Assembly: GCA_002011475.1 (NCBI GenBank)
Contig: MTNP01000003.1
Location: forward strand, 1-52,365
Length of the DNA stretch: 52,365 nucleotides
DNA from: Dehalococcoides sp. JdFR-54
Lineage (GTDB): Bacteria > Chloroflexota > Dehalococcoidia > JdFR-54
Reading direction: 5' to 3'
Below the pieces are notes generated by a model. It saw only the letters and a program-made list of their open reading frames with translations. It searched no databases and was not told the DNA's origin. Positions 10,397 through 44,915 of the stretch are shown here, piece by piece (position 1 is the first letter of the stretch; each line of letters opens with the position of its first letter). A program made the translations under genes and the position numbers.

Positions 10397-10425
10397 TTGA
10401 CGCTCCTGGGGGATACCTATATAAT
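10397..10425 (+). promoter_or_regulatory. Promoter P1 of the heptose/glycan operon
   Basis: TTGACG (10397-10402) and perfect TATAAT (10420-10425) are 17 bp apart. A start near 10432 gives a leader of about 96 nt ahead of the hddC ATG at 10528. It is just downstream of the structured spacer element. Confidence 0.7.
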
Positions 10426-10441
10426 TGAAGCTTGTATTATG

Positions 10442-10470
10442 TTGACAGAGCGAAGCGGCGAAATTATAGG
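10442..10470 (+). promoter_or_regulatory. Tandem promoter P2 of the heptose/glycan operon
   Basis: A consensus TTGACA (10442-10447) is 17 bp from TATAGG (10465-10470), exactly 45 bp downstream of P1. A start near 10477 gives a leader of about 50 nt. Two stacked sigma70-type promoters at the head of a long operon suggest independent inputs, or one real and one chance match. Confidence 0.5.
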
Positions 10471-10527
10471 CAAGGTCAAGGGCGGTTGTTGTTCAGGTCT
10501 AGCCCGAATATCATCACGGGTAGTGCC

Positions 10528-11229
10528 ATGCAGGTGGCTATTCTGGCGGGTGGTCTAGCCACGAGGCTGAGGCCGTTGACGGAGAACATCCCGAAACCGA
10601 TGGTCAGGGTCTCCGGTAGGCCATTTCTGGAGCATCAATTGAATTTGTTAAAAGAGAATGGAATAAGAGACATCGTCCTGTGTCTGGGCTATTTGGGGAA
10701 GAAGGTGGAGAGCTATTTCGGCGATGGAACGAGGTTCGGGGTTAACCTGAAATACAGCTTTGAAGGCAAGCAGCTCCTAGGCACTGCCGGTGCCCTGAAG
10801 AATGCCCAGGAGCTGCTGGAGGATGAATTCTTTGTAATGTATTGCGACTCCTATTTGCTCCTAGACTTTGAAGCCGTTGTGTCCTACTTTAAAAAGCATC
10901 ATAAGTTGGCCCTGATGACTGTGTTTAAGAACCACGACCGTTATGAGCCCAGCAATGTGGTGGTGGAGGGAGATCTGGTTAGGCGATACAGCAAGAGGGA
11001 AAAGACGAGGGACATGGTCTACATCGACTACGGGCTGAACATCCTGAGGAAAGAGGCGCTCAACCTGGTCCCGCCACATGAGCCTTACTCGCTGGAGGAA
11101 CTTTATGCCCAGCTAATAGACCGCCAGGAACTGTTGGCCTATGAGGTGCAAGAACGCTTCTATCAAATAGGGTCTTTTGAAGGCCTAGCTGAATTCGAGG
11201 CCTTTATTTCGGGGAGGTCAGCAAGGTGA
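10528..11229 (+). CDS. hddC: Sugar-1-phosphate nucleotidyltransferase, probable heptose-1-phosphate guanylyltransferase
   Basis: A 233-residue nucleotidyltransferase with the phosphate-binding start VAILAGGLATRLRPLTE, IPKPMVRVSGRPFLEHQL and the metal-site FFVMYCDSYLL. Family members join a sugar 1-phosphate to an NTP. The next three genes make D-glycero-alpha-D-manno-heptose 1-phosphate, so this is most likely HddC, forming GDP-heptose; the base preference itself cannot be read from sequence. The ATG at 10528 is chosen because the protein then begins at the family N-terminus; an in-frame extension back to 10432 would start at the predicted transcription start and lacks family-like sequence. 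The 3' end overlaps the next start by 4 bp (GTGA). Confidence 0.85.
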   Translation: MQVAILAGGLATRLRPLTENIPKPMVRVSGRPFLEHQLNLLKENGIRDIVLCLGYLGKKVESYFGDGTRFGVNLKYSFEGKQLLGTAGALKNAQELLEDEFFVMYCDSYLLLDFEAVVSYFKKHHKLALMTVFKNHDRYEPSNVVVEGDLVRRYSKREKTRDMVYIDYGLNILRKEALNLVPPHEPYSLEELYAQLIDRQELLAYEVQERFYQIGSFEGLAEFEAFISGRSAR

Positions 11230-12209
11230 TCATAACTAGGACGCCGATCAGGATTTCCCTGGGCGGTGGGGGGACAGATCTGGCCTCCTATTACTCCAAA
11301 TATGGCGGGTTTACTGTCGCCGCCACCATAAATAAGCATATCTATGTTACGGTGAACAAACGATTTGAGGATAGCTTGCGGGTTAGCTATTCCAAGACTG
11401 AGATCGTGGATAAGGTCAGTGACATTCAACACCCCATCGTCAGAGAGGCCTTGAAGCTGCTGGGGCTCAATAGCGGATTAGAGATCACCACTATCGCCGA
11501 TGTACCAGCCAGGACGGGGCTGGGCAGCTCCAGCAGCTTCGCCGTGGGGCTGCTCAATGCCCTGCATACCTATAAGAAAGAGACCGTCAGCGCCAGAACC
11601 CTGGCTGAAGAGGCATGCCACATCGAGATCGATATCCTCAAGGAGCCTATAGGAAAACAAGACCAATTTGTGGCCAGCATCGGTGGCATACTTTGCCTCA
11701 ACTTTGGCACCGATGGCCAGGTGACGGTAACACCGCTGCGCATCTCTCCAGATACCCTGGACGAGCTGGAAAGGCGCCTGATGTTTTTCTACACTGGCAT
11801 CACCAGACCTACCTCAACAGTGCTCTCCGAGCAAAACAAAGCTGGCGAGACCAACGAGAGCAAGGTGATAGAGAGCCTGCACCGAGTTAAAGAGATCGGG
11901 TTCGAGGTCAAGGAGGCCCTGGAGGGTGGCAATATCCGCAGGTTCGGTGAGCTTCTGGACCTCCACTGGCAGACAAAGAAAAACCTCTCCAGCCGGGTGA
12001 GCAATCCCGATATCGATAGATGGTATGACATCGCCAAGGAGAATGACGCTATAGGGGGTAAGATCATGGGTGCTGGGGGAGGTGGTTTCTTTATTTTCTA
12101 CGTGGAAGGCAACAAGAACCGGCTGAGAGAGGCGCTAGTTCGGGAGGGGCTGCGAGAGGAACGGTTTAGATTCGAGCCAGAGGGCTCGAAGGTGCTCGTC
12201 AATCTCTGA
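11226..12209 (+). CDS. hddA: D-glycero-alpha-D-manno-heptose 7-phosphate kinase (GHMP family)
   Basis: A 327-residue GHMP-superfamily small-molecule kinase. The N-terminus TRTPIRISLGGGGTDLASYY is typical of HddA-type heptose kinases. The ATP-binding loop is PARTGLGSSSSFAVGLL, and the C-terminal GHMP motif is KIMGAGGGGFFIFY. HddA converts heptose 7-phosphate to the 1,7-bisphosphate. The start is GTG at 11226, overlapping the hddC stop, with GGGGAGG about nine bases upstream. Its position between hddC and gmhA makes the substrate assignment firm compared with other GHMP kinases (fucokinase-like alternatives exist). Confidence 0.9.
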   Translation: MIITRTPIRISLGGGGTDLASYYSKYGGFTVAATINKHIYVTVNKRFEDSLRVSYSKTEIVDKVSDIQHPIVREALKLLGLNSGLEITTIADVPARTGLGSSSSFAVGLLNALHTYKKETVSARTLAEEACHIEIDILKEPIGKQDQFVASIGGILCLNFGTDGQVTVTPLRISPDTLDELERRLMFFYTGITRPTSTVLSEQNKAGETNESKVIESLHRVKEIGFEVKEALEGGNIRRFGELLDLHWQTKKNLSSRVSNPDIDRWYDIAKENDAIGGKIMGAGGGGFFIFYVEGNKNRLREALVREGLREERFRFEPEGSKVLVNL

Positions 12210-12223
12210 GACCAGGTACCGGA

Positions 12224-12874
12224 TTGGGCAACGAGATTCAGAGCCATATTCAAAACTATTTTTCCACACTAGTCGAGCTAGTAGGGCAAATCCCTAAACA
12301 GGACATCGAGAAAACGGTGGAGCTTCTATTCGATGCCTGGAAGAGGGATGCTCAGGTGTTCATCATGGGCAATGGGGGCTCGGCGTCTACAGCCACCCAC
12401 TTTGCTTGTGACCTCTCCAAGACCACCATCGTTGGCGATGGCAGACGGTTTAAGGTTATGGCCCTGGTGGACAACATCCCCCTGGTTAGTGCCTGGACCA
12501 ACGACAGCGGCTTTGGCAGCATCTTCGAGGAGCAGCTCAAGCCCTGGCTTCGGGAAGGGGATGTGGTTATCAGCATCTCGGTGCATGGGGGCTCGGGCGA
12601 GGGGGAGGCTGGCCCCTGGTCCCAGAACCTGATTCGGGCGGTGAGGTTGGCCCGGGAGAGAAGGGCCCAGGTCATCGCCTTTAGCGGCTTTGGAGGTGGC
12701 GCCCTTAAAGAGCTGGCCGATGTCTCGCTGGTCGTCCCTATCGACCGAGAGCCACTGGGGACACCCCTAGTGGAGTCCCTCCATGCAGTGTTGCAGCATC
12801 TGGTCTGTTCCGCCCTAAGGCTGAGGATTGGAAGGGAAACCGAGGGTGAAAAAGGCGATTTTCCTGGATCGTGA
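12224..12874 (+). CDS. gmhA: SIS-domain D-sedoheptulose 7-phosphate isomerase
   Basis: A 216-residue single SIS-domain protein with MGNGGSASTATHFACDLSK, the phosphosugar-binding region of GmhA, and ISVHGGSGEGE as the second phosphate loop. GmhA isomerises sedoheptulose 7-phosphate to D-glycero-D-manno-heptose 7-phosphate, the entry step of heptose nucleotide synthesis. It starts with TTG at 12224, 14 bp after hddA. The C-terminal tail beyond the SIS core overlaps the start of the HAD gene. Confidence 0.9.
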   Translation: MGNEIQSHIQNYFSTLVELVGQIPKQDIEKTVELLFDAWKRDAQVFIMGNGGSASTATHFACDLSKTTIVGDGRRFKVMALVDNIPLVSAWTNDSGFGSIFEEQLKPWLREGDVVISISVHGGSGEGEAGPWSQNLIRAVRLARERRAQVIAFSGFGGGALKELADVSLVVPIDREPLGTPLVESLHAVLQHLVCSALRLRIGRETEGEKGDFPGS

Positions 12875-13460
12875 CGGCGTGATCAACGCCATGGTCTATG
12901 ATCCAGGCCATGGGCTGCTCGATTCGCCATCCAGCTCAGAGCAGTTTCACCTCCTACCCAATGTGGGGGAGGCCATCAAGCTCATCAATGAGATGGGCAT
13001 ATTGGCTCTAGTGGTGTCCAATCAGCCGGGTGTGGCCAAAGGGAGATTTAGCCTCCAGGCGCTGGAGGCAATGGACCAAAAGATGGCCAGGGAACTCGGC
13101 TCAAGGGGGGCCCATCTGGATGGGGTCTACTACTGCCTACATCATCCTCAGGGCATAGTGGAGGAGTATCGCCAGAACTGCGGCTGCCGTAAGCCAGAGC
13201 CCGGGCTGCTATTGCGGGGCAGCCAAGAATTTAAAATAGCCTTAAACCAATCTTACGTGATTGGGGATGGCTTGACCGATATACTGGCGGGAAAGGCAGT
13301 CGGCGCCAAGACCATCCTCTTAGGTCGGCCCAAATGCAATTTGTGTAAACTTATGGATGAGCTGAACGCCACACCCGATTTCATCGCTGCTGACCTATTA
13401 GAGGCGGTAGGCTTAATCCAGCAGATGGAAGGGGGGGAGGGGGATGCAGATCTTCATTGA
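12846..13460 (+). CDS. gmhB: D-glycero-D-manno-heptose 1,7-bisphosphate 7-phosphatase (HAD family)
   Basis: A HAD-superfamily phosphatase of about 204 residues. The nucleophile motif is IFLDRDGVIN, motif II is VVSNQPGVAKG and motif III is VIGDGLTDILAGKAVG. The zinc knuckle of histidinol-phosphatase/GmhB enzymes is present as YYCLHHPQG followed by NCGCRKPEPG. GmhB removes the 7-phosphate to give heptose 1-phosphate for HddC. GTG at 12846 is used because the protein then begins VKKAIFLDRDG; an in-frame TTG at 12828 adds six residues and is possible. It overlaps gmhA upstream and the transaldolase downstream. Confidence 0.9.
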   Translation: MKKAIFLDRDGVINAMVYDPGHGLLDSPSSSEQFHLLPNVGEAIKLINEMGILALVVSNQPGVAKGRFSLQALEAMDQKMARELGSRGAHLDGVYYCLHHPQGIVEEYRQNCGCRKPEPGLLLRGSQEFKIALNQSYVIGDGLTDILAGKAVGAKTILLGRPKCNLCKLMDELNATPDFIAADLLEAVGLIQQMEGGEGDADLH

Positions 13461-14130
13461 CTCGGCAAATGTCTCTGAAATCAAGAAATGGTTGGAGTAT
13501 GGGCTCATCGACGGCGTGACCACCAACCCCAGCATAATGTTCAACGACGGCGTTTACGATGTTGAGACCGGGGCTAAGGAGATCGCCGCTTTGGTGGAGC
13601 CTCGGCCAGTGAGTGTGGAGGTCACCACCAACGACCTGGATGAGATGCTCACCCAGGCGCGGCAGTTCGCCAGCTGGGCGCCCAATATCGTGGTCAAGAT
13701 ACCACAGATTAACCAAGAGGGCACCCCTTGCTACGGGGTGGTACGGAGGCTGGAAAGGGAGGGGATACGGGTAAACGCCACTATAGCCCTGTCCCTGGGC
13801 CAGGTGATGCTGGCAGCCAAAGCTGGTGCTACTTATATAAGTATCTTCGCCGGCAGGGTAGCCGATGAAGGGGGAGATGCCCCCCATTTCATCAGGGCCG
13901 CTGTGGACTGGCTGGAGCGCTGGAAGTATAAGAGCCAAATCATCGCGGGTAGCATCAGGGGAGTGATAGATATTCAAAATGCCGCCACAGCCGGTGCTCA
14001 CATCATCACCATCCCACCTCAGTTTCTCAACCGAATGGCAGACCACAAGTATACCCGGGAGACGGTAAGACAATTCGTCACCGATGCCCGAAAGGCCCTG
14101 GAGATGATGCAACGGTTAGCCAGTAAATAG
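13444..14130 (+). CDS. tal: Transaldolase / TalC-type aldolase
   Basis: A 228-residue class I aldolase of the small transaldolase/fructose-6-phosphate aldolase group. The start MQIFIDSANVSEIKKW, the block DGVTTNPSIM and the Schiff-base Lys in NIVVKIPQ are diagnostic; NATIALSLGQVMLAAKAGA and YISIFAGRVAD follow. Transaldolase interconverts sedoheptulose 7-phosphate with other sugar phosphates. Directly after the four heptose genes (16-bp overlap with gmhB) it could set the supply of the GmhA substrate. The Shine-Dalgarno GGAGGGGG precedes the ATG. Whether it acts as transaldolase or as F6P aldolase is not decidable from sequence. Confidence 0.9.
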   Translation: MQIFIDSANVSEIKKWLEYGLIDGVTTNPSIMFNDGVYDVETGAKEIAALVEPRPVSVEVTTNDLDEMLTQARQFASWAPNIVVKIPQINQEGTPCYGVVRRLEREGIRVNATIALSLGQVMLAAKAGATYISIFAGRVADEGGDAPHFIRAAVDWLERWKYKSQIIAGSIRGVIDIQNAATAGAHIITIPPQFLNRMADHKYTRETVRQFVTDARKALEMMQRLASK

Positions 14131-14256: not shown

Positions 14257-15219
14257 TTGACGAATAAAACCACTAATACCGTTAAGCACTTCATCACTGG
14301 CGGTGCCGGCTTCGTGGGCAGCCATTTGGTAGATAGACTCATCCAGGAGGGTGAGGTCACTGTATATGATAATCTCGCCTCGGGACGCCTGGAGTGGATC
14401 CAGCACCATCTCGACAAGGCCAACTTCAAATTCCTCAGGGCAGATATTACGGACTTTGAGAGCCTAAAGCAGGCCATGGCGGGCCATGATATTGTCTGGC
14501 ACCTGGCAGCCAATACCGACATCAGACGCGGCAACGAGATAGTAGACCTGGACCTGAAACACTGCACCATCGGCACCTTTAATGTGCTGGAGGCTATGAG
14601 GCAGAATGGCATCAGCCAGATAGCCTTTACCTCCAGCGCTACCATATATGGGGAGATAGCCACTATGCCCACCCCAGAGGACTGCGGCCCGCTGCTTCCT
14701 ATCTCCCTCTATGGGGCGGGTAAGCTGGCTGGGGAGGGGCTCATCAGCGCCTATAGTCACCTCTTCGGCTTCAAGGCGTGGATATACCGCTTTGCCAATG
14801 TGGTCGGCAATCGGATGAGCCACGGCGTGATATACGATTTTATCCAGAAGCTTCGCCGAAATCCCCAAGAGCTAGAGATCTTGGGCGATGGCACCCAAGA
14901 AAAGCCCTTCTTTTTAGCTGAGGACTGCATCGAGGGCATGCTCTGTGCCTTGCAAAACTATGAGAAGGATTGCGATGTCTACAATCTAGGTACCGATTCT
15001 GTCACCAGGGTTTCCCGGGTAGCTGAGATCGTGGTCGAGGAGATGGGCTTGAGGGATGTGGAGTTCAAGTATACCGGTGGCAAGAGAGGGTGGCCCGGCG
15101 ATGTGTCTGTAGTCCGCTTCGATGTTAGTAAGATGCGGTGGCTGGGCTGGGAGGCCAAGCACACCTCGGACGAGGCGGTGAGGATAGCCGCTCGGCGTCT
15201 TTTAGGAAAGGAGGGGTGA
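14257..15219 (+). CDS. NAD-dependent sugar epimerase/dehydratase (extended SDR)
   Basis: A 320-residue extended short-chain dehydrogenase of the UDP-glucose 4-epimerase/WcaG group. The NAD-binding motif is TGGAGFVGSHLVDRL, the substrate-side Ser lies in TSSATIYGE, and the catalytic pair is YGAGK. LAANTDIRRGN and the C-terminal RRLLGKEG agree with the family. The substrate is a nucleotide sugar; epimerase and decarboxylase roles cannot be separated. The start is TTG at 14257 with AAGGAGAAGG upstream, after a 126-bp gap in which no clear promoter was found. Confidence 0.86.
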   Translation: MTNKTTNTVKHFITGGAGFVGSHLVDRLIQEGEVTVYDNLASGRLEWIQHHLDKANFKFLRADITDFESLKQAMAGHDIVWHLAANTDIRRGNEIVDLDLKHCTIGTFNVLEAMRQNGISQIAFTSSATIYGEIATMPTPEDCGPLLPISLYGAGKLAGEGLISAYSHLFGFKAWIYRFANVVGNRMSHGVIYDFIQKLRRNPQELEILGDGTQEKPFFLAEDCIEGMLCALQNYEKDCDVYNLGTDSVTRVSRVAEIVVEEMGLRDVEFKYTGGKRGWPGDVSVVRFDVSKMRWLGWEAKHTSDEAVRIAARRLLGKEG

Positions 15220-15229
15220 CTGTCTTACC

Positions 15230-16537
15230 ATGGCAAGTGCGGCGACCCAGGTTTGCGTCATCGGCATGTGGCATCTGGGCTCGGTAACCGCGGCCTGCCT
15301 GGCCCATCTGGGCTACCAGGTAATCGGCGTCGATAAGGATAGCCAAAGGGTGGCGGACCTAGACCAGGGAAAGCCGCCCCTTTTCGAGCCAGGGCTACCT
15401 GAGCTCATCGCTGAAGGCCTCAGCTCTGGGAGGCTCCGCTTCACCACCGAGTTGGGCCAGGCTATAAATGGCTCCCAGTACGTGCTCATATGCTTTGATA
15501 CCCGTGTGGATGAACAGGATGAGCCGGATTTGAGTGAGATACTTGACACCTGCGCCGAGATCGCCAGGTATCTGGAGGAAGGGGCGACGGTGATTGTGAG
15601 CAGTCAGGTGCCGGTGGGCACCTGCGAACGGATAAAGTCCATCATCCAGCAAGGCAACAGCTCGCGAGGGTTTCATATCGCCTGTTGCCCCGAAAACCTC
15701 AGACTGGGACAGGCCATAGAGCGATTCCTGCACCCAGATCGGATAGTCATTGGCGCCGATAGCCCCAGGGCGCTAGACAAGGCCGCCAGCCTTTTCCAGG
15801 TCATCTCAGCCCCCCAGCTACGGATGAACCTAAAAACCGCTGAAATGGTCAAACATGCCCTGAACGCCTTTATGGCCACCTCCATCAGCTTTATCAATGA
15901 GCTGGCAAACCTATGTGATCGGGTGGGGGCTGATGCTGTGGCGGTGGCCCAGGCCCTTGCCTCCGACGAGCGGATTGGGCCTAAACTGCCCCTCAAACCG
16001 GGCCTGGGCTTTGCTGGAGGTACCCTAGCTCGGGACCTCAAAGCCTTGCAGGCAGCCGCCGCCAGGGCCGGCTGTAATACCTACCTTATCGACGCGGTAC
16101 TCAGGATAAACCAGGAACAGATTGGGATAGTGGCTAGGAAACTGGAGGAGGTATACGGCTCGCTGGCCGGCCTGACCGTAGGTTTCCTGGGATTGACCTA
16201 CAAGCCGGGGACCAGCACCCTGCGCCGTTCCGCTGCGCTCCAGATCATCGGAGACATAGTGAGCAAGGGAGCCAGGGTGAAAGCTTACGACCCGAAGGCG
16301 TCACCTGAGGAGGTGGAGCAGTATCGTGGGTTCGAGTTTCATGGCAACCCTTACTCGGTGGCCCAGGATAGCCATGCACTGGTTCTAACCACCGCCTGGC
16401 CCGAGTTCATGGAGCTGGATTATGATGCCATCAAAGGGGCTATGAAAACCCCGATCCTTATTGACGCCATAAATATACTGGATAAAGAAAAGATGCTCGG
16501 CAAAGGGTTCCGATATCTGGGGGTGGGGAGGGGCTAA
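15230..16537 (+). CDS. Nucleotide-sugar dehydrogenase paralogue lacking the catalytic Cys
   Basis: A 435-residue member of the UDP-glucose/GDP-mannose dehydrogenase family with its three domains in order: NAD-binding (VCVIGMWHLGSVTAACLA), central helix and UDP-binding. The Lys/Asn block EMVKHALNAFMATSISF is conserved. At the active-site loop where the family has GFGGSC..KD, this protein reads GFAGGTLARD, so the thiolester-forming Cys is Thr. NPEFLREG is likewise CPENLRLG. A canonical copy lies at 19882. The enzyme may act as an epimerase-like or single-step dehydrogenase on an unknown nucleotide sugar; two-step oxidation to a uronate is unlikely by the usual mechanism. It follows the SDR gene by 10 bp. 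Confidence 0.85.
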   Translation: MASAATQVCVIGMWHLGSVTAACLAHLGYQVIGVDKDSQRVADLDQGKPPLFEPGLPELIAEGLSSGRLRFTTELGQAINGSQYVLICFDTRVDEQDEPDLSEILDTCAEIARYLEEGATVIVSSQVPVGTCERIKSIIQQGNSSRGFHIACCPENLRLGQAIERFLHPDRIVIGADSPRALDKAASLFQVISAPQLRMNLKTAEMVKHALNAFMATSISFINELANLCDRVGADAVAVAQALASDERIGPKLPLKPGLGFAGGTLARDLKALQAAAARAGCNTYLIDAVLRINQEQIGIVARKLEEVYGSLAGLTVGFLGLTYKPGTSTLRRSAALQIIGDIVSKGARVKAYDPKASPEEVEQYRGFEFHGNPYSVAQDSHALVLTTAWPEFMELDYDAIKGAMKTPILIDAINILDKEKMLGKGFRYLGVGRG

Positions 16538-17072: not shown

Positions 17073-18074
17073 ATGAGGGTAGGATTGGTAGGTGCCGGAC
17101 TTCAGGGCCAACGCCGGGCCCCAGCATTAATGCAGTTTCCAGGGACTGAGTTAGTCATTGTGGCAGCCGCTCACCAGGAGACAGCCAAGCGCTTGGCTGA
17201 TAGCGTAGGATGTGAGGCAACAAGCCATTGGGAAGAGGTGGTCGAAAGAGAGGATATAGACGCAGTCATTGTTTGTACCCCTCCCCACCTCCATGCCCGC
17301 ATAAGTATTGCTGCTATGAAGAAAGGCAAGCATGTCTTATGTGAAAAGCCGCTGGCCAGGACAGTCGAAGAGGCAGAAGAGATGCTGAGGGTGGCTCAAC
17401 AGAATAGGACCAAGCTAAAATGTGGGTTCAACCACCGTCATCACCCAGGTATACAGAAGGCTCGTCAGTGGCTTGATGAGGGCTCTGTTGGCGAGCTAAA
17501 CTTCGTTCGCTGTCGATACGGCATCTGTGGTAGGCCGGGCTACGAGAAGGAGTGGAGAGCCAATCCAGAGATAGCTGGCGGTGGTCACCTAATGGAGCAG
17601 GGGATACATGCCGTAGACCTATTCCGCTGGTTTTTGGGGGAATTTACTGAGGTTGCCGGCTTCACTGCTACGTGTTTCTGGGATATGGCACCCCTAGAGG
17701 ATAATGCCTTTGCCCTTTTCCGCACGGCAAAGGGTCAGGTAGCTTCCCTTCATTCTAGCTTAACTCAATGGAAGAACCTTTTCTCCTTTGAAATCTTTGG
17801 GCAGGATGGCTACATCGTGGTGGAGGGGCTTGGCGGTAGTTACGGAACTGAAAAGGTAATTCGGGGGAGAAGGGCTCTCTTAGAACCTTTCAGCCAAGAA
17901 AGCACCGAATTTCGTGGTGGTGACCAGTCCTGGCATGAGGAATGGAAGGAGTTCGTGGCTGCCATAAGGGAGGATCGGGAGCCGCTAGGGAATGGCTATG
18001 ACGGCCTTGAAGCGCTGAGATTAGTCCATGCTGTATATGAATCTGCTGCCAAAGGATATGTGGTAAAGATATGA
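17073..18074 (+). CDS. Gfo/Idh/MocA-family sugar oxidoreductase
   Basis: A 333-residue NAD(P)-dependent oxidoreductase with the Rossmann start VGLVGAGLQGQRRAPAL, VIVCTPPHLHARISIAAM and the signature CEKPLARTVEEAEEML with catalytic Lys. The C-terminal half has GGGHLMEQGIHAVDLFRW, the usual HxxD substrate segment. Members oxidise or reduce sugar hydroxyls, often at C3 of nucleotide hexoses; the substrate here is unknown. A strong GAGGAGG precedes the ATG. Its last 4 bp overlap the next SDR gene (ATGA), so they form one operon. Confidence 0.9.
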   Translation: MRVGLVGAGLQGQRRAPALMQFPGTELVIVAAAHQETAKRLADSVGCEATSHWEEVVEREDIDAVIVCTPPHLHARISIAAMKKGKHVLCEKPLARTVEEAEEMLRVAQQNRTKLKCGFNHRHHPGIQKARQWLDEGSVGELNFVRCRYGICGRPGYEKEWRANPEIAGGGHLMEQGIHAVDLFRWFLGEFTEVAGFTATCFWDMAPLEDNAFALFRTAKGQVASLHSSLTQWKNLFSFEIFGQDGYIVVEGLGGSYGTEKVIRGRRALLEPFSQESTEFRGGDQSWHEEWKEFVAAIREDREPLGNGYDGLEALRLVHAVYESAAKGYVVKI

Positions 18075-21132: not shown

Positions 21133-22139
21133 GCTGCCCGGATAATGATATCATTAATATAGGGGAATACCTCAGAGATATAGACCTGGCCGGCAAAACC
21201 GTCTTGGTGACCGGGGGTGCTGGTTTTCTGGGCTCCTGGGTGTGTGATGCCCTGATGTATAAGGGGGCCCGGGTGCTATGTGTAGACAACCTCTCCAGCG
21301 GCGCTGAGGAGAATATTGCTCACCTTCGGGGTAAAGACGGCTTTCAATTCATCAAGCATGATATAACGCAGCCCCTGCAACCCGATTTGAAACTGGATTT
21401 GGTGATCCATATGGCTAGCAGGGCCTCCCCTTTTGAATTCGAAAGGTTCCCCGAGGAGATAATCCAGGCCAATACTCAAGGCACGTTAATCGCGCTGGGG
21501 ATAGCCCGAGAATTCGGGGCTACCTTTCTATTCGCCTCCAGCAGCGAGGTTTATGGCGACCCATCCCTGGTACCTACCCCGGAGTCCTTTGCCGGTAATA
21601 TCGACCCCACCAAGATGAGAAGTTGCTATTCAGTATCGAAGCGATGTGGGGAAGCCTATGTCGCCGCCTTCAGGAGGCAGTATGGCCTGGATGCCAGGGT
21701 AGCCCGAATCTTCAATACCTATGGGCCTCGGATGAGGGCCGACGGCATTTACGGCCGGGCAGTGCCCCGCTTCATAAGTCAGGCATTGAGGGGAAATGAC
21801 ATAACGGTATTCGGCCAAGGCAGGCAGACCAGGAGCTTCTGCTACGTCACTGACCAGGTAGCGGGACTGTTGAGGCTAGCCACCTCCCCTGGGGCGGAGG
21901 GGGAGGTGGTCAATATCGGCAATGACACGGAGATCACCATCCTTGAGACGGCGGAGATGATTAAGCGGCTGACTGGCTCCCAATCCCAGCTGGCCTTCTA
22001 CCCTTTGCCCGAGGACGATCCCATAAGGCGCTGCCCCGACATAGGCAAGGCCCGGAGACTCCTAGGTTGGGAGCCACGAGTGGGGCTGGAAGAGGGGCTG
22101 CGCAAGACCATAGCCTGGTTTGATGGGGCGGTGCAGTGA
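21126..22139 (+). CDS. UDP-glucuronate decarboxylase-like SDR (UDP-xylose synthase)
   Basis: A 337-residue extended SDR. It shows KTVLVTGGAGFLGSWVCDAL, the substrate segment HMASRASPFEFERFPEE and FASSSEVYGDP, the catalytic YSVSK, and ARIFNTYGPRMRADGIYGR. The HMASRASP and NTYGPRM blocks are typical of UDP-xylose synthases, which turn UDP-glucuronate into UDP-xylose via a 4-keto intermediate. The partner gene just upstream makes UDP-glucuronate. The start is TTG at 21126 or GTG at 21129, both overlapping ugd; the ribosome site is weak, which suggests translational coupling. Confidence 0.85.
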   Translation: MVSCPDNDIINIGEYLRDIDLAGKTVLVTGGAGFLGSWVCDALMYKGARVLCVDNLSSGAEENIAHLRGKDGFQFIKHDITQPLQPDLKLDLVIHMASRASPFEFERFPEEIIQANTQGTLIALGIAREFGATFLFASSSEVYGDPSLVPTPESFAGNIDPTKMRSCYSVSKRCGEAYVAAFRRQYGLDARVARIFNTYGPRMRADGIYGRAVPRFISQALRGNDITVFGQGRQTRSFCYVTDQVAGLLRLATSPGAEGEVVNIGNDTEITILETAEMIKRLTGSQSQLAFYPLPEDDPIRRCPDIGKARRLLGWEPRVGLEEGLRKTIAWFDGAVQ

Positions 22140-23584
22140 AGATATTGGTGATTAACGAGCCCTTTGTTAAGGATTTCTGTCGCACTCAGAGATGGGCGGC
22201 CCGAACCAGGGGCAGGGTGTTGCGGGCCCCGGACTGGCTGGCCTACGCTACCGCTGTCCTAGAAAAGCACCAATACGATGTCGAGCTATACGATTTTCCG
22301 GCTATGAACTGGGGCAAGGACAAGTTGCGGGAGCTGGTGCAGGCAAAACAGCCCGACGTAGTAGTATTAGATTCCACTACCCCCTCCATTTATTCGGACA
22401 TAGGTTGTGCCCGGGTCATCAAAGAGGCGGCCGGCAGCAAGGTGGTTATGGTGGGTCCGCACGCTACGGCGCTCCCCGAGGAGACACTGCTGGAGGCTAA
22501 GGGCGCGGTAGATGTAATATGCAGGGGTGAATACGATTATACAGTCCTCGATGTAGTGCAAAGCTTTGAGAAGGGCAAGGATTTGAGCAGCGTTCTTGGC
22601 ATATCCTATATGGACAGGGATGGGATTAAGCACAACCCTGATAGACCCTTCATCCAAAATCTAGATGAACTGCCCTTCCCCGCCTGGCACCATTTGGACA
22701 TTATGAGGTATTTCGATGGTGGCAAGCTATATCCCTATGTGGACATGATAGCAGGCAGGGGTTGTCCCTATCGCTGCGTCTTCTGCCTCTGGCCGCAGGT
22801 TATGCATGGACACAAATATCGCCTTCGGTCGCCGAATAGCGTGGTCGACGAGATGGAGTACGACCTTAAGCGCTGGCCAGCTCTAAAGCGGGGCGAGATA
22901 TTCTTCGAGGATGACACTTTCACCGTGAACCGAAAGCGGGCAGCAGCGATCTGTGACGAGATTATGAGGCGCGGGTTGAAGGTCACCTGGTCAGTGAATT
23001 CGCGAGCCGATGTGGTGGATATGGAGCTGTTTAAGAAGATGAAGCGGGCTGGTTGCCGTGAGCTGCTGGTGGGCTTCGAGAGCGGCGACCAAGGGCAGTT
23101 GGAACGCATGAATAAGAGGCTCACTATAGAACAGTCCAAGGAGTTTACAAAGGCAGCCCGGGAAGCAGGGCTAGACATAGCTGCCTGCTTTGTTATGGGT
23201 CTTCCCGGCGAGACCAAAGAGACCATGGAGAGGACCATCGAGTTTGCCCTGAGCCAGGACTTCACCACCATTCAGTTTTCGGCGGCAGTGCCCTTCCCGG
23301 GCACTGCCTACTACAATTTCTGTCGGGAAAGGGGGAGCCTGAAGGCAGAATCGTGGGAGGACTGGCTGGATGCGGGTGAGCAGTCCACAGTCGTTGAGTA
23401 CCCCGGGCTTTCGAAACAGGATATTGTCTATTATACAGACTTGGGGCTCAAAAAATTTTACTTTAGGCCGGGCTATATGGTGAAATTTCTGCTGAATACC
23501 CGCTCTCCATCCGACCTGTATCGAAAGCTGAGGGGTTTCAAGAACTTCATGTCCTACTTGCTAAATAGCCGTAAGTCCAAGTGA
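22136..23584 (+). CDS. Cobalamin-binding-type radical SAM protein
   Basis: A 482-residue protein of the B12-binding radical SAM class. The N-terminal roughly 150 residues are a Rossmann-like B12-binding-type domain (VVVLDSTTPSIYSDI, VVMVGPHATALPEE). The radical SAM core has the cluster motif in GRGCPYRCVFC (CxxxCxxC) and later GFESGDQGQLERMNKR and VMGLPGETKE. A C-terminal extension of about 100 residues is basic. Such enzymes in glycan clusters may methylate or rearrange sugars or lipids; the substrate is unknown. The GTG start overlaps the upstream stop by 4 bp, and the stop overlaps the next start in the same way, so translation is coupled. Confidence 0.9.
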   Translation: MKILVINEPFVKDFCRTQRWAARTRGRVLRAPDWLAYATAVLEKHQYDVELYDFPAMNWGKDKLRELVQAKQPDVVVLDSTTPSIYSDIGCARVIKEAAGSKVVMVGPHATALPEETLLEAKGAVDVICRGEYDYTVLDVVQSFEKGKDLSSVLGISYMDRDGIKHNPDRPFIQNLDELPFPAWHHLDIMRYFDGGKLYPYVDMIAGRGCPYRCVFCLWPQVMHGHKYRLRSPNSVVDEMEYDLKRWPALKRGEIFFEDDTFTVNRKRAAAICDEIMRRGLKVTWSVNSRADVVDMELFKKMKRAGCRELLVGFESGDQGQLERMNKRLTIEQSKEFTKAAREAGLDIAACFVMGLPGETKETMERTIEFALSQDFTTIQFSAAVPFPGTAYYNFCRERGSLKAESWEDWLDAGEQSTVVEYPGLSKQDIVYYTDLGLKKFYFRPGYMVKFLLNTRSPSDLYRKLRGFKNFMSYLLNSRKSK

Positions 23585-24620: not shown

Positions 24621-25631
24621 GTGAGTACGGTATCGATAGTCAAGCATGCTGGCGATATGCCCAGCGAAATAAGACAAGCCCTGGAGCTTGCGGGGCTGCT
24701 TCAGGGCTTAAACAATAAAAGCGTAATCATTAAGGTGAATGCTTGCACCCCCCGCTGTGTCCCGGGCCAGGTTACCGCCCCCGCATTTTTGAAGGCAACC
24801 ATCGAGGTATTGCGGGGGTATACCTCGGAGATTACGGTCTGCGAGTCGGATCAACAGCGAAATTCTGCCTGGACAGCCCTAGAGGGCAGCGGGCTCAAGA
24901 CGGCTGCTGTGGAGGCCGGAGCCAAGGTTATCAATTTATCCGAGGCCAGGAGAATTGCCGTAAAGGTCCCTAACCCCTTCCATTTCCCAACCCTGGAGTT
25001 CCCTGAGCCCCTGCTGAATTCGGACATCCTCCTCGATATGTGCGCGATGAAGACGCATAAGCTGACCTCAGTAAGCCTGGGGCTTAAAAACCTCTTTGGC
25101 TGCATCCCTGCCTACGACCGGGTGCTGATGCACCGGCATATTGATGCGCTGCTTCCCGATGTAGCCTCGGTACTCAAGCCCGCCATTTCCCTTCTGGACG
25201 GCATAGTGGGGATGGAGGGGGATGGGCCTATTGCCGGCATCCCCAAGAGGATGAACCTGATCCTATGCTCCGATAGTGTGGTCGCCCTGGACTATGTGGC
25301 TTCCCAGATCATGGGCTTTGACCCGAGGCGCATAAGACATATAGCTAATGCTATGAAGGTACTCCCTATAGAGCCCCTTTCCATCCATGGCAGCCCTGTT
25401 GAGGAGGTCAAGGCCAAATTCAGGCCCGCTGCTTACGATCTCATCTCCAAACTGGAGAGGGAGGCCCAGAGGACAGCCTTTCTGGCCAGGTTTGTCTACC
25501 TCAACCCCACCATCTTTAAGATGGTTAGGTGGACCGGCTGGAAAATGCGGGACTTGACCGGTTACACGAAACAATACCGGAAAGACCTCCAGCTCTCCGG
25601 GGAAAACGTAGACATCTACGACATAATCTGA
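24621..25631 (+). CDS. DUF362-domain protein
   Basis: A 336-residue protein with the DUF362 core: VIIKVNACTPRCVPGQVTAP, TVCESDQQRNSA, DMCAMKTHKLTSVSLGLKN and LLDGIVGMEGDGP. DUF362 proteins are often linked to iron-sulfur or B12-dependent systems, but no reaction is established; no ferredoxin-like CxxCxxC motif is seen here. It begins with GTG at 24621 after a 65-bp gap and has a weak ribosome site. Its place in the glycan cluster, between a GT2 and GT4 genes and 1 kb after a radical SAM gene, is notable but unexplained. Confidence 0.85.
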   Translation: MSTVSIVKHAGDMPSEIRQALELAGLLQGLNNKSVIIKVNACTPRCVPGQVTAPAFLKATIEVLRGYTSEITVCESDQQRNSAWTALEGSGLKTAAVEAGAKVINLSEARRIAVKVPNPFHFPTLEFPEPLLNSDILLDMCAMKTHKLTSVSLGLKNLFGCIPAYDRVLMHRHIDALLPDVASVLKPAISLLDGIVGMEGDGPIAGIPKRMNLILCSDSVVALDYVASQIMGFDPRRIRHIANAMKVLPIEPLSIHGSPVEEVKAKFRPAAYDLISKLEREAQRTAFLARFVYLNPTIFKMVRWTGWKMRDLTGYTKQYRKDLQLSGENVDIYDII

Positions 25632-32142: not shown

Positions 32143-32166
32143 AAGGTGGGGCAAGGGATTGGGGTT

Positions 32167-34368
32167 ATGGCAATAAGTGATTTAATCCGAATGAACGACT
32201 GGGAGTTCGGAAAGTTTCTCAAGGTCATTATCGCCATTCAAGTGGCGATGTTCGCCCTCATGGGTTTGGCTGTCCTAGGTTTAAACATCCCTGGACTAAG
32301 GCAAGTTGTTGGCTTTATCTACCTCTCCTTCGTGCCAGGAGTCATCATCCTCCGAATCCTCAAAATACATAGGCTGAGCACCATAGAAACCCTTTTATAT
32401 TCCGTCGGCCTAAGCATCGTTTTCCTTATGTTCACTGGAGTGCTGATGAATGCCCTTTATCCTCGCATCGGTATCTCGAGGCCGATTTCGACCATTCCTC
32501 TGACAATCACCATGGGCATCATCATACTGATAATGTGCGCCCTTGCTTATAGGAGGGATAAGGACTTCTCCCATCCAGCCCCGATAGATTTCAGGGAGAT
32601 ATTATCACCCCCCGCCCTCCTTTTGCTCTTACTTCCCTTTGTGAGCATCTTTGGCACCTACTTGGTTAATTTTCATCAGGACAATCGACTTCTGCTTTCG
32701 TTGCTTGTCCTAATTGCGCTAATTGCTGCTTTGATTGCCTTTAGCAGATTCATCCCCAGGAATCTTTATCCGCTGGCGATAGCGACGATCGCTATATCTA
32801 TCCTATGTCATAGCTCACTTATAACCATGAATCTGAGCGGGGCTGATATTCGTTATGAATACCATCTTCATAAGTTGGTGGAGACGAAGGGATATTGGGA
32901 TTCAACGGCCCCTGCTACTGCATTTAATGCCATGTTAAGCATCACCATATGGCCGACTATTTACTCCTGTCTGCTGAACATAGAGGGGACATGGATTTTC
33001 AAGGTTATCTATCCCCTCCTTTTCTCGCTAGTGCCTTTAGGGTTATATCAGGCATTTCGCCAGCAGACCGGTGAAAAAATCGCCTTCTTAGCGGCATTCT
33101 TTTTCGTTTCATTTGGGACGTTTTATGGCGAAATGCTGTGGTTGGGCAAACAACAATTGGCTATGTTGTTCCTTACATTGTTGATACTACTGACGGTGAA
33201 CAGGGGATTAGACCCATTTAAAAAGAGGGCGTTATTTATAACCTTTCTTGTCGGGGTGGTCCTATCCCATTATGGCACAGCGTATATGTATTTGCTCCTT
33301 TGGCTTTCTGCTCTGGCGATATTGGCTATCACGAAGTATAGGAGTGAAGTTTTTACTTATGGCTCAACCCTAATATTTATTACCGTCTGTTTGGCGTGGT
33401 ATATGTATACTGCTGGCTCAGCCCCGTTTGATAGTATGGTGCGCATCGGTCATCGTATCTATGAAACCTTCTACGTGGATCTTTTTAATCCCCAGGCAGG
33501 ATACGCAGTGGGAAGAGTGATAGTGGAAACAACCTCCCTATTGCGTGAGGCGAACCGATGGCTGCATATCGTTGTTCAGATTTTTATTGCTATAGGTGTC
33601 ATTGGGTTGATATTGAGACGCAGAGAGATGAGATTTCATGAGGAGTATATCTCTTTCTCGATCCCGTGCTTTCTCTTACTGGCTGCTTGTACGGTTATTC
33701 CCACTTTATCAAATACCATTGGCATATCAAGGCCGTATTTCATCTCTCTCCTTTTCCTGGCACCCTTCTGCATTCTAGGCGGTAAGACCGTTTTCCGGTT
33801 GATTTCAAAGGCGCCGGGCTTTGTGAGGCGTAGAGCTTTCGATGAAAGTCGGCGAGGAATTCCTGCTCAAATTTCATCGCCACTATCTCAGTCCGAAGCC
33901 CTCCTTAAGGTTATGGCTGTTTTTCTGATAATATTCTTCCTGTTTAGCACTAGGTTTGTTTATGCCATGGCAAACGATTATCCCTTGTCAATGCCATTGG
34001 ATGGTAGCCGGGACTATTGGCGCTTCAATGATCGGGAGGAAATTAGTGCTAAATGGCTATTAAGCAATAAGGATGATTCTTTGAAAGTTTATGTCGATCT
34101 TTATGGAACCGCGTTGTTTTATGCCTATCCTGGGGGTCAATTGGGTGAATCGGTGGAACCATTTAGGCGAGGTGCTGAGCAACCACTAGCCCCAATCCCT
34201 GATAAGGCATATATATTTCTGAGAAGCTATAATATCAGGGAGCATACCATACTACCTCATTATACAGCCATAGAGGCACTGGCAAAGGAATATGTGGATG
34301 TGGAAAATCTAGCCTTGTTTAATAGGGATAGAATCTACGATAATGGTGGTGCAGGGGTTTACAGATAA
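32167..34368 (+). CDS. Multi-pass membrane protein, DUF2206-like
   Basis: A protein of about 733 residues with at least 14 hydrophobic segments across the first 600 residues and a C-terminal part of about 120 residues that is mostly soluble (DREEISAKWLLSNKDDS onward) and probably external. The N-terminal MNDWEFGKFLKVI and SFVPGVIILRILK are typical of DUF2206 proteins. These are mainly archaeal membrane proteins of unknown function in glycan loci, distantly like GT-C glycosyltransferases; an Asp in SGADIRYEYH on an early loop would suit such a catalytic site. ATG at 32167 follows AAGGGA; GTG at 32146 is an alternative. Confidence 0.78.
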   Translation: MAISDLIRMNDWEFGKFLKVIIAIQVAMFALMGLAVLGLNIPGLRQVVGFIYLSFVPGVIILRILKIHRLSTIETLLYSVGLSIVFLMFTGVLMNALYPRIGISRPISTIPLTITMGIIILIMCALAYRRDKDFSHPAPIDFREILSPPALLLLLLPFVSIFGTYLVNFHQDNRLLLSLLVLIALIAALIAFSRFIPRNLYPLAIATIAISILCHSSLITMNLSGADIRYEYHLHKLVETKGYWDSTAPATAFNAMLSITIWPTIYSCLLNIEGTWIFKVIYPLLFSLVPLGLYQAFRQQTGEKIAFLAAFFFVSFGTFYGEMLWLGKQQLAMLFLTLLILLTVNRGLDPFKKRALFITFLVGVVLSHYGTAYMYLLLWLSALAILAITKYRSEVFTYGSTLIFITVCLAWYMYTAGSAPFDSMVRIGHRIYETFYVDLFNPQAGYAVGRVIVETTSLLREANRWLHIVVQIFIAIGVIGLILRRREMRFHEEYISFSIPCFLLLAACTVIPTLSNTIGISRPYFISLLFLAPFCILGGKTVFRLISKAPGFVRRRAFDESRRGIPAQISSPLSQSEALLKVMAVFLIIFFLFSTRFVYAMANDYPLSMPLDGSRDYWRFNDREEISAKWLLSNKDDSLKVYVDLYGTALFYAYPGGQLGESVEPFRRGAEQPLAPIPDKAYIFLRSYNIREHTILPHYTAIEALAKEYVDVENLALFNRDRIYDNGGAGVYR

Positions 34369-35523: not shown

Positions 35524-36676
35524 CTATATAAAAGGGTTAAAGACTACCGAAGTATTCGGCATAGCCAAATATCAGAGAGAGATACATGAGAGATTAAAGG
35601 GGGTCGAACTGAACGTTATTGAATATACCGGTTTAGGGCGACTGTTAGGAAGATGGGGCAGAGCCATTCTTCTGCCGAGGTTCCAAGGGCGTCCCTTGGC
35701 TAGCCCTCTAGGATCAGTTGCCAATAATACTTTCATAAATAGGATAAGATGGGGTAGCGATATTATTGACAGGTACCTTAGATACCCTTTCCTAGTTAGG
35801 AAAAGAGTGAAAAAAGGCAATATAAGGCATGTAACAAGCCAAGAACTGGCATATCTATTGAGATTAATTAAATTAAAAAAGACCATTGTCACTTGCTATG
35901 ATCTCATACCCTATATATATTCAAATACCCGCTCGCTCTATTGGAGGCTCAATATAAGCGGGATGAAAAAAGCGGACAGAATTATTACCATCTCAGAGTT
36001 CTCTAAAAATGACATCGTCAAGCATGTGGGCTACCCCGAAGCCAAGATCCGTGTAGTATACCCTGGCGTCGACCATGACCTTTTTTATGTAAAAAGGGGA
36101 AGGGAAATTTTACAAAAATATGATATCCCAGATGACCAAAAGATTGTATTATATGTTGGCTCTGAACATCCCAGGCAGAACGTTCCCCTGTTGATAAAGG
36201 CGTTCGGCAGGTTGAGAGGGATGCTGCCAGAGGTTAAATTATTGAAAGTAGGTAATCCCCAGTGGCGAGGGGCGAGGGAAGAGCTTTTAAGATTAATAGA
36301 GGAACTGAATCTACAAAATGATGTTATATTTGTCGGATATGTCGCCGAGGAGGAGTTGCCCAGATGGTATAACTGCGCTGATTTGTTTGTCTACCCTTGT
36401 TTGTATACCGGTTTCAGTTTGCCTTGTGTGGAGGCGATGGCCTGTGGCACGCCGGTCATAACATCCAATGTCTCGGTCTTACCGGAGGTTGTCGGTGAGG
36501 GAGGGATTACGGTTGACCCTTATGATGTTGAAGGATTGGCGAGAGTGATGTATGAGGTTTTAACTGATCCTAGTTTGAGGGAAGATTTGATTCAAAAGGG
36601 GTTACAAAGGGCTAGGATGTTCAGCTGGGATAAAGCAGCAGAGGAGACTTTGAAGGTTTATGAGGAAATCCAATGA
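35510..36676 (+). CDS. GT4-family glycosyltransferase (tandem copy 2)
   Basis: A 388-residue GT-B enzyme, paralogous to the preceding gene: ITISEFSKNDIVKHVGYP, VLYVGSEHPRQNVPLLIKAF, FVGYVAEEELPRWYNCADL, YTGFSLPCVEAMACGTPVI and VDPYDVEGLARVMYEVL. The usual first Glu of EGFG is Thr here (YTGFS), whereas copy 1 keeps it, so activity or donor use may differ. ATG at 35510 is preferred (GAGG six bases upstream); ATG at 35498 adds four residues. The stop overlaps the following radical SAM start (ATGA). Confidence 0.9.
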   Translation: MIEIDYIKGLKTTEVFGIAKYQREIHERLKGVELNVIEYTGLGRLLGRWGRAILLPRFQGRPLASPLGSVANNTFINRIRWGSDIIDRYLRYPFLVRKRVKKGNIRHVTSQELAYLLRLIKLKKTIVTCYDLIPYIYSNTRSLYWRLNISGMKKADRIITISEFSKNDIVKHVGYPEAKIRVVYPGVDHDLFYVKRGREILQKYDIPDDQKIVLYVGSEHPRQNVPLLIKAFGRLRGMLPEVKLLKVGNPQWRGAREELLRLIEELNLQNDVIFVGYVAEEELPRWYNCADLFVYPCLYTGFSLPCVEAMACGTPVITSNVSVLPEVVGEGGITVDPYDVEGLARVMYEVLTDPSLREDLIQKGLQRARMFSWDKAAEETLKVYEEIQ

Positions 36677-38085
36677 AGAAACTGGTATTAGTGAATCCAT
36701 GGAAAATGATATACCCTCCATTGGGATTGGGTTATATCGCATCCTATTTGGATAAGTATTTAAAGTCTATCAATATTGAAATCATAGACTCGAGCGAAAA
36801 TTTAAAGGAAAAGATAATCAGAAGTAGACCGGATGTTCTTGGATTTACTTCATCGACGCCCAATTATTTCGAAGTTGTTGATTTGATAAAAGAGGTAAAG
36901 AAATGCTTGGATGTCCCAATCATATTGGGAGGACCACACATAACTTCTCTGCCACATAAACTTTCGGAACATGTAGATGTAGGTGTCATCGGTGAGGGTG
37001 AGGAAACCATGCTTGAGCTGATGAAGCTTTTTGATGAAAAGGGAGATTTCGCAAATTCAGAACTGCAAAAGATAAAGGGGATCGTATATCACGACAACGG
37101 AGAAAATATAATAACACCCCCCAGGGAATTAATTGAACCAATTGATAAGATACCTTTCCCTAACAGATCGTTGTTTGATATGTCAAATTATTTGCGGCCT
37201 GCTGACATACTGGTTAACCATGAATATCTGAGAGGGACCTCGATGTTGACTTCCAGAGGTTGTCCCTACCGATGCATATACTGTCAAGTGCCTCAGCAAT
37301 GGCGGAAATTAAGATTGCATTCCGCAGAGTATGTGGCAAGGGAAATCAAACTACTTGTCGATGAATACAAATTGGAAGGGATTGCCATTGTTGATGATTT
37401 ATTCATTGTGAATACCGAAAGGATTGAGCGACTCATAGAACTTCTTGAGGAATACGAAATATTAGGGAAGGTAAAATTTTTAGTAGATGGTAGATCAAAC
37501 CTGATTGACGAAAAATTATTGGCATTACTTAAACGGCTGAATGTTGTTCAAATGGCGCTCGGCATTGAGTCTGGCTCAGAGAGGGTTTTAAACTACTTAA
37601 AAAGGGGGTCAGTAACCGCCGAGCAGAATAGAAATGCAGTGCACCTGGCTAAGAAATATGGTATCGGCATCTATGGACAATTTATGATGGGAACACCGAC
37701 TGAAACAAAAGAGGAGATGCTAGAGACCCTCAAATTCATAAGGGAACAGCCATTAAGGTCAGTGCACTTATCGATCACCACCCCCTTGCCCGGTAGTGAA
37801 TTGTGGGACTACTGCAAAAAGGAAGGCATCGTAACTGATGACATGGATTGGCGCTTGTTCAATATGGAACCCCAGGACAGTGTGGAAAACAACTTCTATA
37901 TCGATAAACAGGTGCCATACGAGGAATTCTTAAACATTTTTAGGCAAACTCAACGTCAAATTAAATATAAGCACTTAAGAAATACACCCCTGAAAACTTT
38001 ATATAAAAACGGGAAGTATGCAATATTGCATCCTATGAGAACATGCAAGTTTGTCTATCGCTTTCTGCGAAAAAGCTATCGCTGA
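36673..38085 (+). CDS. Cobalamin-binding-type radical SAM protein
   Basis: A 470-residue protein. The N-terminal B12-binding-type domain begins KLVLVNPWKMIYPPLGLGY and contains IILGGPHITSLPHKL and GVIGEGEETMLEL. The radical SAM domain carries TSRGCPYRCIYC (CxxxCxxC), GIESGSERVLNYLKRGS and GQFMMGTPTETKEE. The C-terminal roughly 100 residues are basic. It resembles the enzyme at 22136 in architecture but is clearly diverged and much AT-richer. The role could be methylation or another radical change of a sugar or lipid. It is the last gene of the glycan locus. Confidence 0.9.
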   Translation: MKKLVLVNPWKMIYPPLGLGYIASYLDKYLKSINIEIIDSSENLKEKIIRSRPDVLGFTSSTPNYFEVVDLIKEVKKCLDVPIILGGPHITSLPHKLSEHVDVGVIGEGEETMLELMKLFDEKGDFANSELQKIKGIVYHDNGENIITPPRELIEPIDKIPFPNRSLFDMSNYLRPADILVNHEYLRGTSMLTSRGCPYRCIYCQVPQQWRKLRLHSAEYVAREIKLLVDEYKLEGIAIVDDLFIVNTERIERLIELLEEYEILGKVKFLVDGRSNLIDEKLLALLKRLNVVQMALGIESGSERVLNYLKRGSVTAEQNRNAVHLAKKYGIGIYGQFMMGTPTETKEEMLETLKFIREQPLRSVHLSITTPLPGSELWDYCKKEGIVTDDMDWRLFNMEPQDSVENNFYIDKQVPYEEFLNIFRQTQRQIKYKHLRNTPLKTLYKNGKYAILHPMRTCKFVYRFLRKSYR

Positions 38086-41100: not shown

Positions 41101-42671
41101 GTAAGGGGCGCCTGAGGTCACCGTGAACACGGCCTCGGCCAGTTTCTCATAGCTCCACTGCCCGGTGGATGAGATGTAGTGGGTGCTCGCCACCACTTTG
41201 TGAATGCCGGTGGCGGCATCATAGGGAACATAGATGGCGGTGGAGAACTCTCCCCGCTCGTCGGTCCACACCGGCACCAAGCCCCCGGGCCCGACCTGCT
41301 CCGGCTCCCCCCAGGAAATGTTTATCAGGGAATGCGAGGCAAAGCCTGTGCCCTCAACCGTGACTCTCTGACCAGGAGGACCCTGGTAGGGAGTCAGGGC
41401 CAGGCCACGGCCCACGATGGTGGGGGCCACGGTTCCGTTGGTCAACCTGCGAAGAACGTGGCGACCATATCGTCCCCCTACAATCCAGCCTTCCTCGGCA
41501 GAGAGCATAGATATGGAATAGAGGTCAGCATTGATAGGAAAGTCCAGCTGCGACCACTTGCTGCCATCATAGCGGGCTACAAAGCCCTTGGGGTCTAGCG
41601 AGTAGAAGCTCCCAACTATCACCCCACCTGCGAGGACACCATGTCGATGGACCTTATTATGCCGGGCTGGGCCAAGTGGACAGGCACTGGTTGCCAGCTC
41701 TGGCCATCGTAGTGATACATGGCTGTTCCGGCCGTCGCCACCCATACATCGTTGGCTGAGACCGCGTCCACAGCCATGTGCTCAGCCACGGGCAGTACCT
41801 CCTCTATTTCAACCCAGGAGCTACCATTCCAGTGAAGGAGGACATTCTGGCCCACTGCCCAGCCCTCCGTGGCGGAGAGCATGTCAATACTGTACAACTG
41901 CTTGCCGGTATACTCAGTATTCCAAGAGCCGTTCTTGTAATGCAGAATGACCTTGCCTACAGCCCATCCCTCGCCGGATGGGAGCATGCATATATCCCGC
42001 AGCCTCCAGCCGTCTCCACTCGCAGATAGCCTCCACCCATGCCCGTCATAATGATAGATGGCGTTGGAGGACACTGCCCAGAAGTCTTCCGGTGAGGTCC
42101 CGTGCACTGCCCATAGGTTGTAGGAGGTAAACTTGTGCCATACTCTTGTCCAACCCCTGCCATCGTAATACAAGGCAGTGCCAGACTCGCCCACTGCCAA
42201 CCCCTCCCCTGTTGAGAGCACATGTACATCAAAGAGTACACCATACTCAGGCCTCTTGAAGATGAGGGTTTCCTCAGATTCCTGTTTCACGCTGAAATAC
42301 CTGCTGCCCAAGTAGGTGGCCGGCATTGTAGCGAAAGACACCGCCTCCACCCGGTACTGACCGAGGGGAACATTGGGCACGATAAAGATGCCGGAGAAAT
42401 TACCTTGGTTATCAGTGTGGGTGGTGTCAATAGTCTTATAGCCAACTCCTGAGCTACTTGCCCACCTTATGCCAATGCCCACGCCCCCCCGGGCGTAGCC
42501 TATGGAGCCGGAGTAGCTCACCTCCGTTCCAGGGGGACCTGAGGTGGGCGAGATGTTCAAGTGAGGCCAGGCTGCCTGAGCCTGGCGCTCGGGCAAGAGG
42601 GAGAGGAAAAACGCTACCACAAGGAGAACTGCCATCAATTTGAAAGCGATGAGTGCAACGCGCCGCCTCAT
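38200..42671 (-). CDS. Very large exported propeller / Ig-like / dockerin protein, split by a frameshift
   Basis: Two overlapping frames form one protein of about 1,490 residues. The first part (from ATG 42671, with GGAGG eight bases upstream) has a signal peptide (hydrophobic FKLMAVLLVVAFFLSLL, then QAQA) and an Ig-like domain. It ends SIDMVSSQVG at a TGA; the next frame resumes VIVGSFYSLDPKG. Adding one G to the GGGG run near 41624-41627 joins them with exact repeat length. Seven repeats of about 40 residues (GEGWAVG...HYDG.W) suggest a seven-bladed propeller. Then follow Ig-like/IPT modules, a long helical region (about 39.2-40.1 kb) and, at the C-terminus, a carboxypeptidase-regulatory domain and type I dockerin (DSNGDGKIDILDL, DINDDGVVDIFDL). 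Function unknown; probably extracellular. Confidence 0.8.
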
Positions 42672-44892: not shown

Positions 44893-44915
44893 ACTCGCCC
44901 TCCTCAAAGACAAGA

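Follow-up and report, generated by a model that had tools for sequence, protein, structure and literature searches.

Gene array and predicted promoters

The window, i.e. the whole 52,365-nucleotide stretch of Dehalococcoides sp. JdFR-54 DNA that was analysed, contains genes for HddC-, HddA-, GmhA- and GmhB-like proteins and for a transaldolase, which follow one another in this order on the same strand between positions 10528 and 14130 (Table 1). According to the open reading frame list and the sequence, the array is nearly gapless. The HddC and HddA genes share a 4-nt overlap, the 14 nt between HddA and GmhA are the only gap, the GmhB gene overlaps GmhA by 29 to 47 nt depending on whether it starts at 12846 or 12828, and the transaldolase gene, preceded by a G-rich Shine-Dalgarno-like stretch, overlaps GmhB by 17 nt. 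The Pfam and NCBIfam families (in order NTP_transferase, GHMP kinase, SIS_2, HAD-IIIA and TAL_FSA) bear out the five-gene array described in the first-pass annotation, whose assignment to a probable Chloroflexota was supported as well (Dehalococcoidia-like). Tandem promoters had been proposed in front of it. Of these, the predicted promoter P1 is strong, being the sole match of at least 11/12 on both strands of the whole window, with 0.05% of leader shuffles reaching 11; the second is weaker, a score of at least 10 being found in 1.3% of leader shuffles.

Table 1. Array genes, predicted promoters and immediate downstream neighbours in the window
Feature	Position	Strand	Remarks
Predicted sigma-70-type promoter P1	10397..10425	+	TTGACG-17-TATAAT; 11/12
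Possible second promoter	10442..10470	+	TTGACA-17-TATAGG; 10/12
HddC-like sugar-1-phosphate nucleotidyltransferase	10528..11229	+	ATG start; PF00483
HddA-like GHMP heptose-7-phosphate 1-kinase	11226..12209	+	GTG start; NCBIfam HddA best; PDB 4n3o
GmhA-like ketose-phosphate isomerase (putative)	12224..12874	+	H-D-E-H metal site; altered phosphate loop SVHGGSGEGEAGPWS
GmhB-like HAD phosphatase	12846..13460 (alternative start 12828)	+	E. coli GmhB 2gmw/3l8e, E ~2e-33
Pathway-linked transaldolase	13444..14130	+	TalC/FSA superfamily; transaldolase-type active site
SDR epimerase, archaeal GalE-like	14257..15219	+	PDB 3ehe, E 3e-94; recurs in many linked loci
Nucleotide-sugar dehydrogenase, UDP-glucose dehydrogenase family	15230..16537	+	Recurrent module neighbour
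Gfo/Idh/MocA oxidoreductase	17073..18074	+	Recurrent module neighbour elsewhere

The best NCBIfam models were HddA for the GHMP kinase (194.7 bits), GmhA for the SIS_2 gene and GmhB for the HAD-IIIA gene. None of the five proteins reached its own NCBIfam equivalog cut-off, several of which are very strict and hence little informative. The best PDB match of the kinase was the HddA of C. jejuni, and all essential residues of WcbL (R13, D22, S118-S120, Q162 and D163) are kept in it. The HddC-like protein scored about equally against the models for MurU (125 bits), Man1P-GTase (108 bits) and HddC (107 bits), and these profiles did not separate GTP from other NTPs. In the GmhB-like protein, which is closest in similarity to the E. 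coli enzyme, alignment showed that the Cys/His zinc loop and the HAD DxD motif are kept. If the heptose names were an over-annotation and the genes made a hexose-based nucleotide sugar, the missed equivalog cut-offs and an HddC score nearer MurU would be expected. However, the HddA, GmhA and GmhB models are best for three adjacent genes at once, the pocket residues of HddA are kept and a transaldolase would be odd in a hexose pathway, which makes this reading very improbable.

Linkage across phyla and a distinct transaldolase group

In a survey of 201 Chloroflexota genomes the transaldolase was found together with homologues of HddC, HddA, GmhA and GmhB in seven (G177, G029, G089, G145, G081, G054 and G127). 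Three more (G075, G024 and G097) have it beside most of these homologues. In about 10 other Chloroflexota genomes the linkage covers the five families completely or almost so. Conservation of the linkage had been anticipated within this phylum; it proved far wider. A second scan, in which genome contigs were searched with the window HddA, returned 80 loci, two of which apparently correspond to records G177 and G145 and most of which come from metagenome-assembled genomes, with possible binning errors. At 38 of the 80 a transaldolase lies at most 6 kb away, spread over about 16 phyla (assigned from the record titles), three of them archaeal, and one of the carriers, Methanospirillum stamsii, is an isolate. 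By a rough estimate (1-2 copies per ~3 Mb), chance would place a transaldolase this near at less than 1% of the HddA loci. The commonest neighbour pair was GmhB followed by the transaldolase (n = 32), and in one draft genome (L068) the two form a single in-frame ORF of 441 aa; a second case (L062) was left out of the fusion count, as it looks frameshifted at the transaldolase N-terminus. Because the five families are linked in so many other genomes, the array in the window is more than a chance arrangement.

Two further groups of loci were observed in the same scan. In the Zixibacteria loci L085 and L086, HddC, HddA and GmhA are ~56-65% identical to the Chloroflexota copies, which suggests horizontal transfer of these modules. 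In the Acidobacteriota loci L148 and L150-L164, the HddC and GmhB homologues adjoin, in most cases within one open frame, and HddA is present; neither GmhA nor a transaldolase was found near these genes.

The first-pass annotation had considered that the transaldolase might show only fructose-6-phosphate aldolase (FSA) activity. In an alignment with E. coli FSA and the T. maritima transaldolase, the window protein carries the transaldolase-type set Glu59, Asn107, Ser129, Phe131 and Arg168 (FSA numbering) as well as the Schiff-base lysine; the FSA signature Gln59, Leu107, Ala129 and Tyr131 is absent from it, with Glu, Asn, Ser and Phe in these places. With a single exception, the other TalC-type copies that were examined carry this transaldolase-type set and the lysine as well, and D6, N28, E59, K85, N111, T113, S133, F135, R138, S170 and R172 were invariant in 28 linked transaldolases. 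Judged by these active-site residues, an FSA activity was rejected.

The module copies belong to the same fold family as the TalC-type enzymes of Thermotoga maritima (1vpx) and Thermoplasma acidophilum (3s0c) and have every transaldolase-type active-site residue in common with them. Unlike these enzymes, they lie outside the housekeeping clade and are linked to NDP-heptose genes; most of them have Ala instead of Leu after Asn-x-Thr (NxTA vs NxTL), a group-specific exchange for which the window copy has Ile, and in many the loop that follows the catalytic Lys is altered. A 38-row tree split the linked transaldolases, together with one unlinked copy on a fragment contig (L074), from the others with support of 100/99. 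In a tree of 70 rows, made by a quick method with SH-aLRT support only and with housekeeping rows nearly all from Chloroflexota, 23 housekeeping transaldolases formed one group (99), and all other rows except L074 were linked copies. Depending on the root, the linked transaldolases may be one group or a paraphyletic remainder. Both kinds, linked and housekeeping, coexist in G029, G089, G177, G081, G024 and G075. A precedent for a transaldolase dedicated to a single pathway is the sulfofructose transaldolase BmSF-TAL (8bc2-8bc4), which differs in serving another pathway and in its lower similarity to the module enzyme.

No transaldolase besides the operon copy was found in the window genome (~94% complete), as would be expected if this copy were the ordinary pentose-phosphate enzyme of the organism that came to lie in the operon by chance. 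Yet it groups with the linked copies and not with the housekeeping clade, the linkage recurs across phyla and other genomes hold both kinds. On linkage, tree and coexistence this candidate was rejected, and we regard it as improbable. Glucose-6-phosphate dehydrogenase (G6PDH) was not found in the window genome at this completeness, and a gene for a transketolase N-terminal domain is present. Without G6PDH, sedoheptulose 7-phosphate has to come from the non-oxidative route, and as no other transaldolase was found it is sensible to attribute this supply to the operon transaldolase.

The GmhA-like isomerase and the identity of the sugar

The predicted structure of the GmhA-like protein had a mean pLDDT of 91.8 (~72 at an insert), and GmhA structures matched the SIS_2 fold of this model best by a wide margin. 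In alignment with E. coli GmhA, the exchanges E65 to D, T120 to V, S121 to H and Q172 to E were observed. The His-Glu-Gln-His zinc set of GmhA is thus absent from the window protein, whose metal-site positions are His59, Asp63, Glu184 and His192, with two of the four zinc ligands replaced. The equivalents of Asp63 and Glu184 are invariant in 30 relatives, some of them without a transaldolase. In the GmhA of B. pseudomallei zinc is bound via H64, E68, Q175 and H183, which are reported as completely conserved; mutating each of them significantly lowers activity, and the Q175E structure has substrate trapped (PMC5705639). The STSGxS phosphate loop of GmhA is not found either: STSGNS is replaced by SVHGG plus an insert, with the equivalents of Ser119 and Ser124 kept, or by SVGGG in another subgroup. 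The residues corresponding to Thr122 and Gln173 of M. tuberculosis GmhA, contacts described as fully conserved (PMC7705670), are also replaced.

A complete GDP-manno-heptose pathway, as proposed in the first-pass annotation, was therefore not established: two of four zinc ligands and the phosphate loop of the GmhA-like protein are changed, and the base used by the HddC-like protein is ambiguous. A further point is the anomer. LPS-type GmhBs favour the beta anomer and the GmhB of B. thetaiotaomicron the alpha anomer (PMC8204981), which is the product of HddA (PMC10680097); by similarity, the window GmhB is nearer to the E. coli enzyme, which prefers the beta anomer, although its partner kinase belongs to the HddA type that yields the alpha anomer.

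The type of phosphate loop tracks the transaldolase. A transaldolase lies nearby at 43 of 53 loci with an SV(H/G)GG loop and at none of 12 with a canonical loop (Fisher 1.6e-7, with kinship ignored, some negatives near contig ends and loci chosen not independently of the module). The canonical-loop rows fall into one group and the SVGGG rows into a second, so perhaps only one or two independent loop/transaldolase events are represented. SVHGG-type GmhA genes without a transaldolase nearby were seen at L091 and L126. A different combination, a canonical phosphate loop with Asp/Glu zinc ligands, was observed at L076, L077, L078, L137 and L144, some of them beside HddA or GmhB; no transaldolase was found near the GmhA-like gene at these five loci.

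Such features might indicate that another activated sugar is the product, either a heptose other than the manno form or an aldose with eight carbons. The latter would arise via an octulose 8-phosphate, which the transaldolase would form from a pentose 5-phosphate; the rebuilt loop and metal site of the isomerase would suit this octulose phosphate. The rebuilt phosphate loop with its replaced Thr/Gln contacts, the association of loop type with the transaldolase, the NxTA motif near the transaldolase active site, the altered loop after the lysine in many copies and the second, housekeeping transaldolase retained in many genomes all point in this direction. Against it stand the heptose-binding WcbL residues, all kept in HddA, the GmhA fold as by far the best match of the isomerase, and a loop association that may reflect few evolutionary events. 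We consider a different sugar possible, if somewhat unlikely. In a speculative extension, the transaldolase and the re-tooled isomerase would together be the entry to an undescribed activated sugar, an octose or a heptose of another kind, and the module that makes it would be common to bacteria and archaea. This appears slightly less probable still.

A proposed pathway and its end use

The reading that we prefer, with a probability of roughly 55%, is a widespread variant of the NDP-heptose pathway that is coupled to a transaldolase and feeds a surface glycan. Gene order, the linkage over many phyla, the separate transaldolase group and the active-site residues come from the computations; the substrates, nucleotide, stereochemistry and end use of this scheme are those we infer for the module. 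The linked transaldolase would convert fructose 6-phosphate and erythrose 4-phosphate to sedoheptulose 7-phosphate, which the GmhA-like isomerase would turn into aldoheptose 7-phosphate. The HddA-like kinase would then add a phosphate at C1, the GmhB-like phosphatase would take off that at C7, and the HddC-like enzyme would join the heptose 1-phosphate to a nucleotide, probably from GTP, to give an NDP-heptose. This might be modified by the adjoining SDR and dehydrogenases before glycosyltransferases encoded in the glycan cluster downstream use it. In M. tuberculosis GmhA, HddA and GmhB bind one another (PMC7705670), by analogy a precedent for a possible complex of the module enzymes. The scheme is further favoured by the recurrent linkage, the GmhB-transaldolase pairs and fusion, the position of the linked transaldolases in the trees and their coexistence with housekeeping copies, their active site, the WcbL residues kept in the kinase, the GmhA fold of the isomerase, the missing G6PDH and the glycan genes downstream. 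Against it count the four exchanges in the isomerase, the ambiguous HddC specificity, the unlike anomer types of GmhB and HddA, and the SVHGG-type GmhA genes of L091 and L126 that have no transaldolase nearby. With the known NDP-heptose pathway the proposed variant has in common the four enzyme families and their chemical order, the HddA catalytic residues and the glycan cluster context. It differs in the dedicated transaldolase as a fifth gene and in the GmhA-like protein, whose metal site is H-D-E-H and whose phosphate loop is changed; the HddC and GmhB specificities are putative.

Downstream of the operon lie GT2- and GT4-type glycosyltransferases, nucleotide-sugar enzymes and a DUF2206 membrane protein. 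The SDR next to the transaldolase was rejected as a heptose-specific enzyme, given its archaeal GalE-like character. Neither a GT9 heptosyltransferase-family gene nor an HldE transferase domain was found in the window genome (~94% complete), so that an LPS-type use is unsupported, and the LPS/ADP-heptose reading was rejected on these grounds. The module resembles the ADP-heptose pathway of LPS in its GmhB, but has a kinase of the HddA type. The heptose surface glycan suggested at the outset agrees with the glycan-biosynthesis neighbourhood and draws no support from an LPS-type route; judged from the gene content, a heptose-containing glycan is a plausible end use.

Other proteins were noted among the glycan genes. 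These include a DUF362 protein (24621-25631), the DUF2206 membrane protein (32146-34368) and two radical SAM proteins, one with a B12-binding domain in Pfam (22136-23584) and one similar to it by eye (36673-38085). Two large putative surface proteins (38200-41745 and 42688-44913, both on the - strand) contain paired D-x-N/D-x-D-G repeats, which in the translations look like type I dockerin modules by eye.

Most of what is known of heptose nucleotide sugars concerns LPS, capsules and a few S-layers, and among the open-access papers searched none was found that describes a transaldolase-linked heptose-nucleotide module. The swapped zinc ligands make the use of sedoheptulose 7-phosphate by the isomerase a clear point at which the proposed pathway can be tested. 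If it is correct, the presence of the module in about 16 phyla including archaea would mean that the production of heptose nucleotide sugars is much more widespread, and its own transaldolase would represent a precursor supply built into the heptose-nucleotide pathway.
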